This document shows, in pieces, positions 49,712 through 57,111 of a DNA stretch of 58,060 nt (position 1 is its first letter; each line of letters opens with the position of its first letter). The stretch is from positions 1 to 58,060 of the forward strand of contig JABIAY010000067.1 in NCBI GenBank assembly GCA_018653085.1, written 5' to 3'. Origin of the DNA: Nitrospina sp. GTDB lineage: Bacteria; Nitrospinota; Nitrospinia; Nitrospinales; VA-1. The notes beneath the pieces are model-generated. The model had not been told where the DNA came from. It saw only the letters and a program-made list of their open reading frames with translations, and did no database searches. The translations under genes were made by a program, and so were the position numbers.

Positions 49712-49857
49712 CCCACTCCCGTGGGAGGGTGTGATCCTCTTCCCTGATCTTCATGCCCCGGAGGGGTAAACTGGGCAAGAGCTCTTTCAGCCGAGACAAC
49801 TCTTTGCTAGCAATAAAACGCTATTGCAAGCTGAGTCCAGCGTCACGCTGGTGGCTA
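49712..49857. repeat. Mosaic intergenic repeat R13 between convergent genes
   Basis: Modules in order: CCCACTCCCGTGGGAGGG (49712-49729), TTCATGCCCCGGAGGGGTAA, ACTGGGCAAGAGCTC, GCCGAGACAACTCTTTGCTAG, AAAACGCTATTGCAAGC, the palindrome CCAGCGTCACGCTGG (49837-49851) and GTGGCTAG. The final CTA is the reverse complement of the motE-like TAG stop (49855-49857). Confidence 0.85.
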
Positions 49858-50514
49858 GTTGTCAGGGGAACCAGACATCGGTTTATCTCTCTTACCTGCC
49901 ATATTTTCACTGATTCGTTTCGCGACTTTAACATCCAGATTACTTAAAACCTGCCCTGCGATTTTACTTTTCATTCCCGAAATAATTTGTAACGCGAGGC
50001 CTTCATCGATGGCCTCAACCAGGTTAGCCGCTTCTTCCGGTTTCATGCTGGAATAAACTTTGATCAAAGCCTCGACATTTTCCTTGGTCTTTTCGTCTTG
50101 AATTCCCATCTGCGCTTTCGATTCGGAAATATTTTTCTCAATTTTATCCAGGTCTTTTCGGACTTTGGCCTCCAACGCCTCAACCCGGGTTTCCCTGACG
50201 CGTAATGCCTCTTCCCGTTCTTTCAGTTCCCGGCTCTTATTTTCTATGGTTTCTATCATTCTAAACGTCTCGGGGCTGACCGCAGGCATCTGGCCCGGCA
50301 ATTTTAGTTTTTCTTTTTCCTTCATCTCCTCTTTCTGCGCTTCCATCGGGAACAACTTTTTCTTCTCCCGGGTCTTTTCAGTCTCTTCATTGAGCTGTTT
50401 CACCTGGGCATAAGCCACGCCGGGCTCCAGGTTTCCGGCAAAGTATTTGTCGGAGCTTCCAGCCAGAAGGAAAACTACAGCAAGCATAAAAACAAAAATT
50501 ATTTTAAATTTCAT
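49855..50514 (-). CDS. MotE-like periplasmic flagellar protein (MgtE_N/FliG-related domain)
   Basis: From the ATG at 50514, with AAGGGG upstream, the protein has 219 residues. A signal or anchor segment (IIFVFMLAVVFLLAG, residues 4-18) is followed by a long coiled coil (about 75-155; ESKSRELKEREEALRVRETR). A C-terminal domain of the MgtE_N/FliG-middle type completes it (VYSSMKPEEAANLVEAID, ALQIISGMKSKIAGQVLSNL). This matches MotE, a periplasmic chaperone of the stator protein MotB in other bacteria. It is the last gene of the fliF-H-I-J unit. Its TAG stop abuts repeat R13. Confidence 0.78.
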   Translation of the reverse strand: MKFKIIFVFMLAVVFLLAGSSDKYFAGNLEPGVAYAQVKQLNEETEKTREKKKLFPMEAQKEEMKEKEKLKLPGQMPAVSPETFRMIETIENKSRELKEREEALRVRETRVEALEAKVRKDLDKIEKNISESKAQMGIQDEKTKENVEALIKVYSSMKPEEAANLVEAIDEGLALQIISGMKSKIAGQVLSNLDVKVAKRISENMAGKRDKPMSGSPDN

Positions 50515-50524
50515 GATGCGCCCC

Positions 50525-50959
50525 TTATAAATTTCTTCCCCAGAGATTGGAAGCCACCTCATCCAGAATTGCCGTTTCTTTCTTTTCTCTGATTTTTCGC
50601 TCTTTCAAGGCATCTCGGTCTTTCAAAATTTCCAAGGTTCTGCGTTTGCGCATGGCCTCAACCACTTCTTCTCGCTTAGCCTCAAGCCTGGTGGTAATTT
50701 CTGAGATTATTTTACCCTGTCTCTCTTCTTGAGCCTGGGTTCCCTGAAAAAAATTATCATACAGAATCATTGTTCCAAGACCGACATTCAATCTTTTCTT
50801 CTGATTCAATTCATTCCTGCTTTTCTCGGTAGCGTCCTGCACAAACTGCCTTTGATCCTGTTGCTGTTGGTAGAGAGTGTTGATCAGCCCCATATCCTTC
50901 TTCAGAAGGTCTTCTTTATTCTTTCTCAAACGAAGTATGATGTCGAATCGAAAGCTCAA
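50525..50959 (-). CDS. fliJ: Flagellar export chaperone FliJ
   Basis: This 144-residue, almost entirely helical protein starts FRFDIILRLRKNKEDLLKKD, the usual FliJ opening, and continues as a coiled coil (FVQDATEKSRNELNQKKR, EVVEAMRKRRTLEILKDRD). FliJ is the stalk of the flagellar export ATPase, resembling the gamma subunit of F1. It lies 2 bp after fliI. Confidence 0.85.
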   Translation of the reverse strand: MSFRFDIILRLRKNKEDLLKKDMGLINTLYQQQQDQRQFVQDATEKSRNELNQKKRLNVGLGTMILYDNFFQGTQAQEERQGKIISEITTRLEAKREEVVEAMRKRRTLEILKDRDALKERKIREKKETAILDEVASNLWGRNL

Positions 50960-50961
50960 GT

Positions 50962-52281
50962 TTAATCCTCCAGAATCTTTTTCAATTCATTCATACTGGT
51001 TCGCCAGTCAATTCCATCAAAAATTCCCTGCTTGAGGTAGGGCATCATGAGGTCATGTTTTTGAATAGCCTGATCAATTTTGGGATTACTGCCACGTGTG
51101 TAAGCCCCGATATTGATCAGGTCTTCAGCCGACTTATAAGTCGCCATAATATCCTTGAACTTCATGGACAAATCATAGTGTTCCTTGGAGACAACATCAA
51201 TCATCAAACGGCTGACACTATTCAGAACATCAATGGCAGGATAATGGTTATGCATAGCCAGTTCGCGGCTTAGCACAATATGTCCATCGAGAATGGCTCG
51301 CACGGCATCTGATATGGGCTCGTTCAAATCATCCCCTTCCACCAGTACCGTATAAAGGCCGGTTATCGAGCCTTCGCTTGATGAAGTTCCGGCACGCTCC
51401 AGTAATTTAGGCAGCAAGGAAAATACCGAAGGCGTAAATCCTCGTGTGGCGGGAGGCTCTCCAACAGAAAGGCCAATCTCCCTTTGCGCCAGGGCAAAAC
51501 GGGTGACCGAATCCATCATCAGCATAACATCGTTTCCCTGGTCACGAAAATATTCAGCAATGGTCGTTGCAATATAAGCCCCGCGAAGCCGGACCAGCGG
51601 AGGCTCATCGGAAGCCGCGGCAATCACCACGGACCGCTTCAAACCTTCCTCGCCCAGGTTTTCATCAATAAATTCCTTGACCTCCCTGCCCCTTTCACCA
51701 ATGAACGCAATCACATTCACATCGGCATTGGTGTTTCGGGCAATCATTCCCATCAGAACCGATTTACCCACTCCGGTTCCAGCAAGGATTCCCAATCTCT
51801 GACCTTTGGCAAAAGAAAGCAGTCCATTGAGAGCCCGCACCCCTACGTCCAACGGCTCCCTCAAGCGTCTTCGATCCAGTGGATTCACCGGACTGCCCAT
51901 CAGTGGATATTCACTCCCAAAAGGAATCGGTCCTTTGCCATCAATAGGCTGACCGTTACCATCGAGGATTCTCCCAATCAATCCATCACTGGGTTTATAG
52001 GTAGGGGATTCTTCTGTGGCTTCAATAAGGCTTCCTGGCTCAATTCCAAGCATATCTCCAAGAGGCATCAACAAAGTACTTTGATCTCGAAAACCTACCA
52101 CCTGTGCTTGAATAGGCGGCCGGTTACTCGGGTAGATAGTGCAAAGGCTTCCCACTGATACCGCCGGGCCATCCCCTTCAAGGACCAGGCCAATAACCCG
52201 ATTCACTTTTCCCGTTTTCTTTACGAAATCGGTTTTCTTGATAAATGAACTGTATTTTTTAAAATCAATAACGGTATCCAT
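50962..52281 (-). CDS. fliI: Flagellum-specific export ATPase FliI
   Basis: This 439-residue protein has the F1-beta-like fold. Walker A is GTGVGKS at residues 168-174, and DVGVRALNGLLSFAKGQRLG precedes it. The Walker B region MLMMDSVTRFALAQREIGL and the FliI-specific SVFSLLPKLLERAGTSSSEG, then LSRELAMHNHYPAIDVL, follow. It energises export of flagellar rod, hook and filament subunits with FliH and FliJ. It lies 6 bp after fliH. Confidence 0.95.
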   Translation of the reverse strand: MDTVIDFKKYSSFIKKTDFVKKTGKVNRVIGLVLEGDGPAVSVGSLCTIYPSNRPPIQAQVVGFRDQSTLLMPLGDMLGIEPGSLIEATEESPTYKPSDGLIGRILDGNGQPIDGKGPIPFGSEYPLMGSPVNPLDRRRLREPLDVGVRALNGLLSFAKGQRLGILAGTGVGKSVLMGMIARNTNADVNVIAFIGERGREVKEFIDENLGEEGLKRSVVIAAASDEPPLVRLRGAYIATTIAEYFRDQGNDVMLMMDSVTRFALAQREIGLSVGEPPATRGFTPSVFSLLPKLLERAGTSSSEGSITGLYTVLVEGDDLNEPISDAVRAILDGHIVLSRELAMHNHYPAIDVLNSVSRLMIDVVSKEHYDLSMKFKDIMATYKSAEDLINIGAYTRGSNPKIDQAIQKHDLMMPYLKQGIFDGIDWRTSMNELKKILED

Positions 52282-52287
52282 AATTAC

Positions 52288-53253
52288 TCAATTCGTTTCT
52301 TCAGGGGATTCGGTTTCTGGATCGTTTTCCTGCGCCGGGGTTTCGCCCTGCTCTTCCTCGGCGACTTCTTCAGTACTCGTTGCGGAATCCTGCGCCGGGG
52401 TTTCGCCTGGCTCCTCCTCGGCAATTTCTTCTTCAGTACCCGTTGCGGAATCCTCTTGAAGGGTTGACGCAGAAATCAACTCGTCAGGAGGTGGTGGAGC
52501 GAGGTTCAGGATGCGGTCCATCTGTTCTCCCAGCTTGTCCATTCTGGCATCAACCACGCCAAAGTTAGTTTCCACAACACAGCCACCCCGCTCTACTCCG
52601 GAATGCGCCTCAAAGGTAATATTTTTAATTTCACTGAACAGGTGGTGCAACTCAGGGCGAAAGCTTTCCGCATAACCTTTATCCGCAGGGTTAATCTTGA
52701 TGACCATCGACTCACGGTCCAGCACCGATTGAACAGCCAGTCGGATCATCTCCTGTACCGCATCATCCCGTGTGGAAAACTCGAAATGGATGACCTTTTT
52801 CGCGAGGTCAACCACCATTTCGATCATCTCTCTCTCCCCCTTGTCATACATATTTTTGCGAAAAACGGTCAAATCCGCAATCAGACCCTGTATCGTTTCC
52901 AGAAAAGGACTGAATTCTTTTTTGGCGGCTTCTTCTCCCTTTTTAAATCCTTCATTGTAACCCTCATCGTGACCTTCTTTTTGGGCATGGGTCCTGATTT
53001 CCGCAGATTGCCTTTTTGCCTTGTCCAGGGCATCCTTGAGAAGTTCTTTTACCCCCTCCTTGGCTGTCTTGACATTGCCCTGATCAAAGTTTCGGGCATT
53101 TTCCGAATCATAGGTAAAACCACGCCTCATGGAAGAATCCTGGATATTCAGTTCATCCAGCTCAAAAGAACGTACCTCCTGTGAAGAGGCGCTTTCTTTT
53201 TCCTGTTCCGGTTCAAGATTACTTTTGGTAAATGTACTGCTTGGGTCAGACAA
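52288..53253 (-). CDS. fliH: Flagellar assembly protein FliH
   Basis: This 321-residue protein uses a TTG start that overlaps the tail of the fliG remnant. The central FliH region has KRQSAEIRTHAQKEGHDEGY, NEGFKKGEEAAKKEF and MVVDLAKKVIHFE, then GVERGGCVVETNFGVVDARM. At 321 residues it is longer than most FliH proteins because of acidic low-complexity tails. The C-terminal tail contains a tandem 60-bp duplication (52329-52448) encoding two copies of a SAT-x-TEE...GETPAQ unit. FliH regulates FliI and docks it on the C-ring; its usual partner FliN is not in the window. Confidence 0.88.
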   Translation of the reverse strand: MSDPSSTFTKSNLEPEQEKESASSQEVRSFELDELNIQDSSMRRGFTYDSENARNFDQGNVKTAKEGVKELLKDALDKAKRQSAEIRTHAQKEGHDEGYNEGFKKGEEAAKKEFSPFLETIQGLIADLTVFRKNMYDKGEREMIEMVVDLAKKVIHFEFSTRDDAVQEMIRLAVQSVLDRESMVIKINPADKGYAESFRPELHHLFSEIKNITFEAHSGVERGGCVVETNFGVVDARMDKLGEQMDRILNLAPPPPDELISASTLQEDSATGTEEEIAEEEPGETPAQDSATSTEEVAEEEQGETPAQENDPETESPEETN

Positions 53254-53352
53254 TGGCTTCTCCTTGGCCTATAATGATTTTTCCATCTTCTTCCAATTTC
53301 TTGCACACGGCAATGGTTTTTTACCGAGTTTTTCCTGCTCGCTGATTCTCAT
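53246..53352 (-). pseudogene. fliG: fliG remnant (C-terminal about 36 codons, frameshifted)
   Basis: Between fliF and fliH, where fliG normally lies, one frame reads MRISEQEKLGKK. After a six-A run (53317-53322 as T on the plus strand) another frame reads TIAVCKKLEEDGKIII, then GQGEAIV and a TGA that overlaps the fliH start. Joined, these match the extreme C-terminus of FliG (R-x-S-x-x-E...I-x-x-x-x-x-LEE-x-G-x-I-x-I). The other roughly 300 codons are absent; the fragment starts 12 bases after the fliF stop. Either fliG was deleted, or an assembly lost it. Confidence 0.78.
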
Positions 53353-53364
53353 AGCCAACTTGCT

Positions 53365-54963
53365 TTAACTTTTAGCTGGTTTAGGTTCTTTTTCCCGCAT
53401 CCATTTTCGGATCACGCTGGCAGTGTATTTGGGATCATTAGAAACAAACTCTGCCACTGAATCACGAATATGAGCCGACTCGGAAGCCATTTCACTAAGG
53501 CGTTGTTTCTCTTCATCCACTGCGTCAAATTCCGTTGCGCCCAGTTGATCTGCTTCCGGCATCACTTCCACCGTCATCGTCATCCAATTGATGATAGGCC
53601 GGATGACCCGGGTGAAAAACAGAATAAGGAATATCAGACCCACCACCAGTTTTCCGATTTCCATGCCCAGGTCAATCTGTTCGGACCGGGCGATATCTTC
53701 CTTCTGCATTTCCAACTCGGACCGATCAAATTGAATGTTCTCAACCTGAATGATATCTCCCCGGTCCTGATCAAACCCCACAGCAGACTGAATGATTTGC
53801 AGGTACTTGTCCATGTCCTCCTGAGATCGCGGCTGATATTCCGGCGGGTCTCCCGCCATGGAGCCATCGACCATCACTGCGACACTGAGTTTTGAAATCT
53901 CGCCGACCGGTTTCGAAACCCTCCGGACAACCTTGTTTATTTCATAATTTGTAATAGCATTCGATTTATTCCGCTTGGCCGCTTGGCCAACGGTTCCACC
54001 TGGAGATGCACCCGATGGGACCAAAGCCTGAACACCCGGAATCCCTCCTGGAGGCGTAGCACCTGTAGAGGACTCAGTAACCTGGTTTTCACTTCTCACA
54101 ACCTGAGAGTCTGGATCATAAATTTCCTCGGTTCTTTCCACTTTTTCAAAATCCAACTCTGCCGAGACTTTGGCGATCACTTTTCCCATCCCCAATGCAT
54201 CTTCCAGCATTTTAATAATACTTTGTTGAAGTTTTCTTTCCACCCGCGTTTTATGTTTGAAATTGGATGACGACATCATCGCTTCAACAGAGGATTCCAT
54301 ACCACCGGAAAGCAGATTACCCTTCACATCGACCACCACCACATCCTTCGCAGAAATACCCCCGACACTCGCTGAAACTAGGTGGACGATTCCCTGCACC
54401 TGGGTTTCCGTCAGGGTTTTACCGGATTTAATTTTCAACGTCACAGAAGCCTTGCCCTTGGGCTTACCCTTGCGAAACAGATTGTCCTTGGGGATAACCA
54501 GATGAATCCGGACTTGGGCCACCGCGTCCAGGGTTTTGATAGTACGAGTCAGCTCACCCTGCAAGGCTCTTTGGAAATTTAATTTTTGTACAAATTCCGT
54601 CATTCCTAATGGGGTATCATCAAAAATTTCCAAGCCAACATCGGAACCCTCCGGCAACCCTTCGCTGGCTAATTGCAGGCGGACTTCATGCAACTGGTCC
54701 GAAGCAACGCGAATCGTCCGGCCCTGGTTTGAAAGCTCAAAAGGAATTTTCTGGGATTTCAGTTTATCCACAATCGCTCCCGCGTCCTCAGTAGAGAGGT
54801 TGGCATAAAGAAGCTGATAGTCTGGAGTCTTCAACCACAAGGACATCACCAACAGAGATGCCAGGGCCAAAGCGACAAGAGACAGGGCCGCTATCTTCTT
54901 ACCTTGTGAAAGTTCGCCAAACCGTTCGCCAAACTGTCTTAAAAAATCCAGAAAATTTTCCAT
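53365..54963 (-). CDS. fliF: Flagellar MS-ring protein FliF
   Basis: This 532-residue protein has the standard FliF layout. A first membrane helix lies at about 25-45. The YscJ-like ring domain has YQLLYANLSTEDAGAIVDKL, EGLPEGSDVGLEIFDDTPLG and RTIKTLDAVAQVRIHLVIP. The periplasmic domain follows, then a second helix (about 435-455) and the cytoplasmic FliG-binding tail (FVSNDPKYTASVIRKWMREK). The tail is intact, although the fliG gene that should supply its partner is reduced to a fragment immediately downstream. fliE, usually just upstream, is missing; only 27 bp separate fliF from flgC. Confidence 0.95.
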   Translation of the reverse strand: MENFLDFLRQFGERFGELSQGKKIAALSLVALALASLLVMSLWLKTPDYQLLYANLSTEDAGAIVDKLKSQKIPFELSNQGRTIRVASDQLHEVRLQLASEGLPEGSDVGLEIFDDTPLGMTEFVQKLNFQRALQGELTRTIKTLDAVAQVRIHLVIPKDNLFRKGKPKGKASVTLKIKSGKTLTETQVQGIVHLVSASVGGISAKDVVVVDVKGNLLSGGMESSVEAMMSSSNFKHKTRVERKLQQSIIKMLEDALGMGKVIAKVSAELDFEKVERTEEIYDPDSQVVRSENQVTESSTGATPPGGIPGVQALVPSGASPGGTVGQAAKRNKSNAITNYEINKVVRRVSKPVGEISKLSVAVMVDGSMAGDPPEYQPRSQEDMDKYLQIIQSAVGFDQDRGDIIQVENIQFDRSELEMQKEDIARSEQIDLGMEIGKLVVGLIFLILFFTRVIRPIINWMTMTVEVMPEADQLGATEFDAVDEEKQRLSEMASESAHIRDSVAEFVSNDPKYTASVIRKWMREKEPKPAKS

Positions 54964-54990
54964 GAGAATTATTGTTTAAAGGTTTTTTAT

Positions 54991-55434
54991 TTAACGACCC
55001 AGATCGATCGCTCGAATGGCCATGGCCTTGGAAGCATTGAGAGCTGTGATATTCGCCTCAAACGACCTTTGCGTGGTGACCATATTCACTATTTCCGTCA
55101 TTTGATCAATATTAGGCATCGCAACATAACCCAGATCATTGGCATCGGGGTGGCTCGGGTTATAAACCAAACGCGGTTCCGACTGATCCTCGACCACATC
55201 CGCGACCTGCACCTTGGTCAACTTATCACCCAACGCATTTTTAAACGTGTTGCCAAATTCATCTGCCAGGGGAACCGCAGTAACCAGAACATCTTTCCGG
55301 CGATAGGGCCCTCCTTCCGGAGTCCGTGTGGTTTCTATATTGGCCAGATTGCTGGAGATGGTCTCCATCCGCTTGCGTTGAGTTGCCAAGCCCGATGAAC
55401 TGATTTTCATATTTGTCAGAAAGTCCATAATCAT
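54991..55434 (-). CDS. flgC: Flagellar basal-body rod protein FlgC
   Basis: This 147-residue protein has the rod-protein N-terminus (MKISSSGLATQRKRMETISS, then NLANIETTRTPEGGPYRR) and C-terminus (VAMPNIDQMTEIVNMVTTQR, then SFEANITALNASKAMAIRAI). The start may be the ATG at 55428, two codons on. FlgC forms the proximal rod with FlgB and FlgF. flgB normally precedes flgC, but the 300 bp upstream show no FlgB sequence. Confidence 0.93.
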   Translation of the reverse strand: MIMDFLTNMKISSSGLATQRKRMETISSNLANIETTRTPEGGPYRRKDVLVTAVPLADEFGNTFKNALGDKLTKVQVADVVEDQSEPRLVYNPSHPDANDLGYVAMPNIDQMTEIVNMVTTQRSFEANITALNASKAMAIRAIDLGR

Positions 55435-55734
55435 TCTCTAAAAAAGTTTGTTTTTTATAGAAGGCTTTTGCCTCCAATAATGCGTTCAGGTTAAATAAAG
55501 CAAGTTTCATACCATAGGAAGCCAAAAGGGGGAAAGAACAGCGATGGCAACAAAAACCCTTTATCTATAAAGAGTTATGTGGATAAGAGCGGAGGTGGGG
55601 AAGTGGTGAATTTTCCCGGCATGGGCAAAATCCGTCATAATTTTGGCCCTTGCCAGTGAGCTACCGGCATGGAGTGTAACCTGCCCTCATCTTTGCGAAA
55701 AAGCCTTTTTAGGTAACAGGGTACAGATTGCGTT
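55435..55734. other. 300-bp gap between the NtrC-type regulator and flgC
   Basis: No gene, repeat R-family module or clear sigma-54 (GG-N10-GC) promoter was found. One exact DnaA-box-like TGTGGATAA lies at 55578-55586 and a small AGGC/GCCT hairpin near 55460-55475. If the flagellar genes have their own promoter it should be here. Confidence 0.5.
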
Positions 55735-57111
55735 CTACTCGCCCTCGTTATATTCGTTGAGTTTGTTGCGCAAGGTGCGGATGCTGATGCCCAGAGATTC
55801 GGCGGCTTTGGTTTTGTTGTCACTGAACTCTTTCAGTGTTTGCAGGATCAATTCTTTTTCCATTTCAGAAATCGTTCCGGTGAGTCTTGCACCAGCCGCA
55901 TTTTTTCCGGAAGAGAGCGGCTCATCATCGAAAAACAGATGCGCGGGAAGCAGAGTATCACCCTGGCACATCAGGCATGTCCGTTCGATGATGTTTCCCA
56001 GTTCCCGAATGTTGCCGGGCCAGCTATATTTTTTCAGCAGGGCCAGGGTCGCCGGATCCATCTTGACGGGAGAGCGGGAGTTTTCCTGGCAAAACTGGTT
56101 CATAAAATGTTCCGCCAAAATTGGAATGTCATCCTTTCTTTCACGCAGGGGAATTAAATTCAAAGGAATCACATTTAACCGGTAATACAGGTCTTCGCGG
56201 AATTCCTGATCCTGAATTCGGCGGCGGACATCACTGTTGGTCGTAGCAATCACCCTCACGTCCACAGGGATAGGGGCCTTACCGCCCACCTTATCCACCT
56301 CATGTTCCTGCAAAACCCGCAGGAGTTTGGCCTGTAGAGGCAGACCCATCTCTGTGATCTCATCCAGTAGAAGTGAGCTTTGGTGAGCCTGCTGAAACTT
56401 TCCTTCCTTGTTTTCCGTGGCTCCGGTAAAAGACCCTTTTTCATGACCGAATAGTTCCGACTCCAGCAGACCTTCGGGCAAAGCGGCGCAGTTGACAGCC
56501 ATAAAGGCCTTTCCAGCTCGGGGACTGCATTGATGGATATAGCGCGCAAATAATTCCTTTCCGGTCCCGGTCTCTCCCATAATGAGGACAGTCGATTTAC
56601 TGTAAGCAACATTCTCAGCAAATTTCAGGAGTTTTTTCATTTCCTCATTCTGGGTCACGATTTTTTTTGTGATGATCGAATCGGCCTTGTCGATAAAACC
56701 CATCGGGCGAACTGGAGGAACATAATCCTGTGGATTTAAAAATGCACGCTTCACCGTAGAAACCAGCACATCAGCAGAAAACCCGGACCCTTTTATCAGA
56801 TAATCGAAGGCACCTTCCTTCATCGCCTCGACCGCATTGTCGATCGTTCCATATGCGGTCATCATGACTACGGGTATCTTGGGTGAACGTTCCTTGACCG
56901 CCCGCAACAATTCCAATCCACTCAGTTTTGGCATGCGCACATCTGTCAGAACCAGGTCAAACGCGTCATCCTCAAACAGGTCCAGTGCCTGTTTACCGTC
57001 TTCCGCGCAAACTAGTTGATAGTCCTCGCGCTTCAGGGTTGTTTCCAACGCAATCCTCATTTCGGATTCGTCATCAACAATCAGTATTTTTTTGGAAGAA
57101 TTATTTTCCAT
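55735..57111 (-). CDS. NtrC-family sigma-54-dependent response regulator (FlrC/FleR-like)
   Basis: From the ATG at 57111 the protein has 458 residues. It has a receiver domain (ILIVDDESEMR, phospho-acceptor D57 in VLTDVRMPKLSG) and a sigma-54 AAA+ domain (Walker A GETGTGKELF, the loop GSFTGATENKEG, VNCAALPEGLLESELFGHEK, DLYYRLNVIPLNLIPLRERK). A Fis-type helix-turn-helix follows (NKTKAAESLGISIRTLRNKL). Its start overlaps the kinase gene's end by 11 bp, so it is the cognate regulator. Its position before flgC suggests control of flagellar genes, as with FlrC; direct targets are inference. Confidence 0.9.
   Translation of the reverse strand: MENNSSKKILIVDDESEMRIALETTLKREDYQLVCAEDGKQALDLFEDDAFDLVLTDVRMPKLSGLELLRAVKERSPKIPVVMMTAYGTIDNAVEAMKEGAFDYLIKGSGFSADVLVSTVKRAFLNPQDYVPPVRPMGFIDKADSIITKKIVTQNEEMKKLLKFAENVAYSKSTVLIMGETGTGKELFARYIHQCSPRAGKAFMAVNCAALPEGLLESELFGHEKGSFTGATENKEGKFQQAHQSSLLLDEITEMGLPLQAKLLRVLQEHEVDKVGGKAPIPVDVRVIATTNSDVRRRIQDQEFREDLYYRLNVIPLNLIPLRERKDDIPILAEHFMNQFCQENSRSPVKMDPATLALLKKYSWPGNIRELGNIIERTCLMCQGDTLLPAHLFFDDEPLSSGKNAAGARLTGTISEMEKELILQTLKEFSDNKTKAAESLGISIRTLRNKLNEYNEGE

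Follow-up and report, generated by a model that had tools for sequence, protein, structure and literature searches.

Two processes familiar from bacterial genomes bear on the locus described here. In paralogue replacement, a form of gene relocation in bacterial operons, a duplicate outside the operon takes over and the original decays in place with the flanking genes remaining intact. The second is the deletion of sequence between short direct repeats by strand slippage, which is likewise a known process. We analyzed a flagellar locus in which the fliG gene of the operon is reduced to a remnant, and like the pseudogenes left by paralogue replacement it appears to combine an outside duplicate which takes over, a decaying operonic fliG and intact flanking operon genes. 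It differs from such pseudogenes in general in that several lineages have ended with nearly the same short 3′ remnant, a shared end point that was apparently determined by a direct repeat, to which the overlapping start of fliH perhaps contributed. Like strand-slippage deletions the junction lies at an imperfect 27-nt in-frame repeat, the two copies of which are 891 nt apart; unlike those deletions which have been observed, the present one is read from the sequence alone.

Two fliG genes in one genome have been described for Borrelia burgdorferi where, according to the accessible part of the report, FliG1 acts in torque generation and flagellar synthesis requires FliG2 (PMC7225975). To that extent the case is similar, as two fliG homologues per genome are also found in three genomes of the genus studied here (G007, G011, and G012) and in five of the nine genomes of the sister genus g9. 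Unlike in Borrelia, where both copies are kept with different roles, 7 of the 11 genomes that could be read at this place have no more than a remnant of the operonic copy, and the genome analyzed here, being one of the seven, has a single full-length fliG in place of the two of Borrelia. In the accessible parts of the literature on fliG and flagella of Nitrospina, on FliG paralogs, on fliG pseudogenes with a second copy and on gene loss at direct repeats no report of this fliG arrangement was found. The kind of event is familiar; its apparent recurrence with a common junction is the interesting part. With a probability of about 0.87 we interpret the locus as a paralogue replacement, in which fliG was duplicated, the constrained orphan copy supplies the FliG ring and the operonic copy decayed to a stub by repeated deletion.

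The fliG remnant between fliF and fliH

The window, that is the whole stretch of DNA analyzed, is contig C28 (58,060 nt) of a 3.16-Mb draft genome of 78 contigs, whose closest named relatives as judged by FliF are metagenome-assembled Nitrospinaceae/Nitrospina. Between 49.8 and 55.4 kb the minus strand carries flgC, fliF, a gap, fliH, fliI, fliJ, and then a gene with a weak MgtE_N match. The rod gene at 54991-55434 (PF00460, PF06429) is by sequence and place what we take to be flgC. It is followed on the same strand by fliF (53365-54963), which with 532 aa and both of its domains (PF01514 and PF08345) is intact, as the initial annotation had stated for its FliG-binding tail, and by fliH (52288-53253, PF02108), fliI (50962-52281; ATP-synt_ab and T3SS_ATPase_C, the name being given from family and place), and fliJ (50525-50959, PF02050). 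In the region 54963-55735 flgC directly precedes fliF, and fliE is located on contig C4 of the same genome and not between them; by eye, without a dedicated flgB search, no flgB-like open reading frame was noticed before flgC. The gene after fliJ (49855-50562) gave an MgtE_N-type match with an E value of 1.4e-4, which is below the cut-off, and presumably could by its place be a flagellar chaperone of the MotE kind.

From the stop codon of fliF (53365) to the TTG start codon of fliH (53253) the gap measures 111 nt. We aligned the region 53246-53364 locally with the intact operonic fliG genes of congeners and compared the scores with those of 1000 dinucleotide-block shuffles. Over their full extent positions 53246-53352 on the minus strand align with the terminal 108 nt of the operonic fliG of G014 (nt 892-999 of 999), with 90 of 110 columns identical and a score of 116, the largest shuffle score being 34. 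The scores with the operonic fliG of G012, G007, and G011 are 84, 89, and 81 (shuffle maxima 38, 28, and 34), so that all four congeners, with scores of 81-116, lie above all shuffles, which did not exceed 38 in any of six remnant comparisons; the homology of the fragment to FliG is thereby confirmed. The orphan fliG of the same genome yields a score of only 40 (57 of 81 columns, shuffle maximum 36), which identifies the remnant as being of the operonic type.

In the remnant the start codon region is joined to the final 36 codons of operonic fliG; the remnant is one base short and is read in two frames. The ATG at 53352-53350 opens MRISEQEKLGKK in a frame that stops at the TAG at 53271-53269. 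The reading frame changes at a run of six A (53317-53322, minus strand), and after this run the sequence reads TIAVCKKLEEDGKIIIGQGEAIV up to the TGA at 53248-53246, which overlaps the start of fliH (TTGTCTGA). One base is missing at the six-A run relative to the intact tail, and this single missing base could be a consensus error. The open frame and the domains are lost, with 107 nt left compared to 999 nt in an intact operonic fliG. Thus the description in the initial annotation of a frameshifted C-terminal end of fliG between fliF and fliH, with a frame change after the six-A run and the remainder of the gene gone, agrees with the alignments. Searches with the FliG_C and FliG_N profiles gave no match on C28, and the remnant does not have FliG_N, FliG_M, and FliG_C in one frame as a functional FliG would. 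A tblastn search with the orphan FliG had no match in the gap of any of the remnants found in the genus either, and these were shown by sequence alignment instead. Judged from these alignments, 53246-53352 is a pseudogene of the original operonic fliG.

Since the contig analyzed belongs to a draft and its frame breaks at a six-A run, it could be argued that the assembly or the consensus is wrong and that the real genome contains an intact fliG at this place. However, six further assemblies of the genus also have a remnant at the corresponding position, which in five of them is of similar length; this makes it unlikely that the deletion is an assembly artefact, and there is no second FliG_C match anywhere in the genome itself. 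We therefore rejected an artefact, to which we assign next to no probability.

An intact fliG outside the operon

The initial annotation had predicted that motility is lost unless another fliG exists. This proviso applies, as the search of the whole genome with the FliG_C and FliG_N profiles matched exactly one gene, an intact fliG on contig C25. It encodes 335 aa in one open frame with FliG_N, FliG_M, and FliG_C above cut-off and matches a chain with solved FliG structure with an E value of 1.1e-66. The sequence EHPQ, which we take to be a motif of FliG, is present and is aligned with that of the solved proteins. The dN/dS values of this gene versus the other ten orphans are between 0.02 and 0.13, which indicates that it is under strong purifying selection. 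The orphan is located on a separate contig of the draft and is tied to the organism by the agreement of its tree with that of FliF. Very probably the orphan FliG does the job of the operonic copy.

A broken flagellar motor, with the loss of fliG marking the loss of motility in this lineage, is suggested by the absence of an operonic fliG and by the observation that G001 of the same genus is without a FliF or FliG match, so that real loss may happen nearby. Against this stands the intact and constrained fliG elsewhere in the genome. Furthermore, FliF, FliH, FliI, and FliJ are open with their domains, and the genome encodes FliM (C55) and FliE (C4) and has eight matches of the flagellin type, of which seven exceed the cut-off. 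Among the flagellar genes searched, which are part of the full set, there was no sign of a dead flagellum. We rejected motility loss, since a full-length fliG under purifying selection is present in the same assembly, and consider a broken motor very improbable; because of the complete second fliG swimming need not be lost.

We also compared the related genomes, as had been proposed. A FliG_C match was obtained in 12 of the 16 genomes of the genus, and 11 of these 12 have an orphan-type fliG. The exception is G014, for which we do not claim a reciprocal loss leaving the operonic copy only, as the contig ends within its orphan locus (C67:49850). The orphan is adjoined by an ACT-domain gene, which is whole in 10 of the 11 genomes and a fragment in G005. 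What follows fliF could be read in 11 genomes; G015 was left out of this count, since its fliF lies at a contig end and FliH gave no match. Operonic fliG is intact in four of them (G007, G011, G012, and G014), the first three of which have both copies in full length, and a remnant in seven (the window's genome G000 and G003, G004, G005, G008, G009, and G010), so that six other genomes combine an operonic remnant with an intact orphan fliG. The remnant of G004 is different; it is larger, contains a run of N and has FliG residues of about 189-226 before the tail. It scores 84-96 with the four operonic FliG, and none of 1000 shuffles scored as high.

In the sister genus g9 five of nine genomes have both types of fliG, two have the orphan only and two have none; one of the five with two copies has a run of N in the operonic copy. 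A frameshift in the operonic fliG of G038 is not claimed, as there is a run of N. In G034 fliF is found without a FliG_C match, and its fliG is cut by a contig end.

Some further observations were made in the same genomes. G001, which is 98% complete, has FliE, FliM, and a single flagellin match, which is interrupted by a stop (C11, C5, and C24); a FliH search, which had no positive control, gave no match in addition to the lack of FliF and FliG, and the flagellum of G001 may truly be decaying. In G011 there are two copies of fliF on separate contigs (L021/L035 and L030/L040), each followed by the start of an operonic fliG, one of which is cut by the contig end; possibly this is due to strain mixing (4% contamination). 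In another genus of the family G020 encodes a second, very divergent FliG (L157, G020:C67:46-996), which is about 54% identical to the window's orphan and has a branch length of 1.03; neither fliF nor fliH was found in the 3,000 nt examined.

History of the duplication and of the operonic copy

In a tree of 59 FliG rows a branch (95/92) sets apart the 17 orphans, together with G043a, a row of unknown context, and the nine operonic rows from g1 and g9 group as one clade (100/96). As the genus and g9 each have both types, the duplication is older than their split. Tree and synteny place the duplication of fliG in the common ancestor of the genus and its sister genus in the same family, with one copy beside the ACT-domain gene. 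In three genome pairs with both copies the dN/dS values are 0.061, 0.125, and 0.134 for the operonic gene versus 0.020, 0.030, and 0.032 for the orphan; by this measure both copies are constrained, the operonic copy less so.

In a tree of FliF and FliI the seven remnant operons need three changes, and none of 200 bootstrap trees gets by with one. A tree in which the remnant operons form one clade is rejected (AU test, p 0.0007). The deep branches of the genus have no resolution in this tree, and the well-supported branches on their own force only one change; the six similar stubs could descend from fewer deletions. The orphan FliG tree places G004, which has a remnant, beside G007, G011, and G012, which have intact operonic genes (98/89). 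Because the remnants do not form one clade, the loss of operonic fliG probably recurred, that is the gene was probably lost more than once within the genus.

The nearly identical junction in six of the seven remnants could also be accounted for by a single old deletion, after which some genomes regained an intact operonic fliG through recombination of the operon. The rejection of one remnant clade by the AU test is at odds with a simple single loss and cannot on its own tell regain from repeated loss. G004, however, has a different remnant, and synonymous divergence between G011 and G012 does not signal a transferred operon: dS of fliF (0.43) is in line with the values for the ACT and CBS genes beside the orphan (0.47 and 0.40). 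The two fliG genes of this pair differ, with dS values of 0.67 for the operonic and 0.26 for the orphan copy. Taken together these values do not seem to indicate an operon transfer in this pair, and a single deletion followed by regain appears quite unlikely to us.

The deletion junction and the start of fliH

All remnants except that of G004 share the same pattern, in which a start codon region is followed by roughly the final 36 codons. Measured from the region of the fliG start to the position of its stop, these six stubs are 96-112 nt long (in G005 109 nt from its last ATG); in intact operonic fliG the stretch beginning with the C-terminal MKIS codons and ending with the stop is 108 nt long. 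Intact operonic fliG contains an imperfect in-frame repeat, which encodes MKINGPEKA at the start and MKISEVEKA near the end. In G014 the copies are ATGAAAATCAATGGACCGGAAAAAGCC at the start and ATGAAAATCAGCGAAGTTGAAAAGGCC at nt 892; the repeat has a length of 27 nt with 10 identical nt, and its copies are in frame. The likely deletion junction in the window is located at 53341-53352 on the minus strand (ATGAGAATCAGC) and is equivalent to the direct repeat ATGAAAATCA, which is found at the start and near the end of the G014 gene. Measured in present-day intact genes and not in the sequence at the time of each deletion, the repeat copies are identical in 20 of 27 positions in G014 (2 of 1000 codon shuffles as good), 20 of 27 in G011 (0 of 1000), and 18 of 27 in G007 (17 of 1000), and in these three genes no other segment matches the first 27 nt as well as the repeat copy does. 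In G012 the repeat is no better than chance, with 16 of 27 positions, a tie with two other places and 320 of 1000 shuffles as good. The equivalent segments of operonic genes outside the genus, comparable in 7 of the 11 genes examined, match in 12-15 of 27 positions. A deletion between the repeats is therefore likely. At codon 4 the stub of the window has AGC like the C-terminal copy, and four other stubs have AAT like the start copy, which is a hint at separate events.

The 3′ end of the stubs coincides with the start of fliH. In the window AAGGAG at 53260-53265 (minus strand), the candidate ribosome-binding site of fliH, lies inside the remnant six nt before the TTG of fliH, and the other five stubs have GGAGA or GGAGG at the same place. 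The complete overlap TTGTCTGA is found in five of the six stubs; G005 has TTGTCAGA. The last 20 columns of the stubs, which comprise the fliH start region, match the intact tails with 0.81 versus 0.66 elsewhere. As a middle block of the stubs is equally well kept (0.86), we do not claim selection on the start of fliH.

These features raise the question whether the remnant is kept as a functional mini-ORF or leader coupling the translation of fliH to that of fliF. Start codon, GGAG box, and fliH TTG are kept in six of six stubs, and in four of them the frame from the start codon is open up to the fliH start (G008, G009, and G010) or just past it (G005); in the window it ends 15 nt short of fliH. 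On the other hand the frame ends before fliH in the window and early in G003, and the stub of G005 has one extra base and no fliG stop. To see how well the stubs are conserved the gap was compared with 23 other 100-nt windows, the two pairs with G010 being compared without six windows beyond its contig start. Between G008 and G009 (L037 and L036) the gap differs by only 5% (0.95 identity), less than 22 of the 23 other windows, which differ by 3-16% with a median of 10%. This pair is the only one of the kind; for the other five of the six genome pairs the gap belongs to the windows with the lowest conservation, and conservation of the stub as a whole was rejected. Moreover, all five nucleotide differences between the G008 and G009 stubs, which by eye fall into four codons, change the encoded residue. 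A kept leader, though compatible with the pseudogene explanation, is thus unlikely. The economical view is that of a decaying remnant whose 3′ end houses the start of fliH and which may in addition have a leader role. As a tentative and bolder idea, operonic fliG might be a recurrent deletion hot spot, where the repeat allows independent lineages to shorten the gene, in frame, to a leader which maintains the translation of fliH, a protein gene being repeatedly turned into a cis-acting translational leader after the takeover by the paralogue.

Returning to paralogue replacement as the preferred explanation, the following course of events can be envisaged. fliG was duplicated before the split of the genus and its sister genus, with one copy now lying outside the operon. 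The orphan has stayed under strong constraint, and the motor would obtain its FliG ring from it. In genomes that have kept it the operonic copy evolves faster, and it was probably lost more than once in the genus. Slipped-strand or recombinational deletion between the direct repeats would leave the start region and about the last 36 codons. Since the likely ribosome-binding site of fliH and the fliH start lie within the stub, the expression of fliH would be unaffected by deletions ending at this point. In the window the remnant would have lost its frame after the deletion.

A core motor gene missing from the main flagellar operon is thus not equivalent to a non-motile cell, which corrects a tempting wrong reading of such loci. 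In these uncultured Nitrospinaceae the departure of a flagellar gene from its operon can be followed in a natural series, with both copies intact, with the operonic copy partly deleted and with a stub. The end point of gene decay may in such a case be set by a direct repeat together with an overlapping downstream gene.
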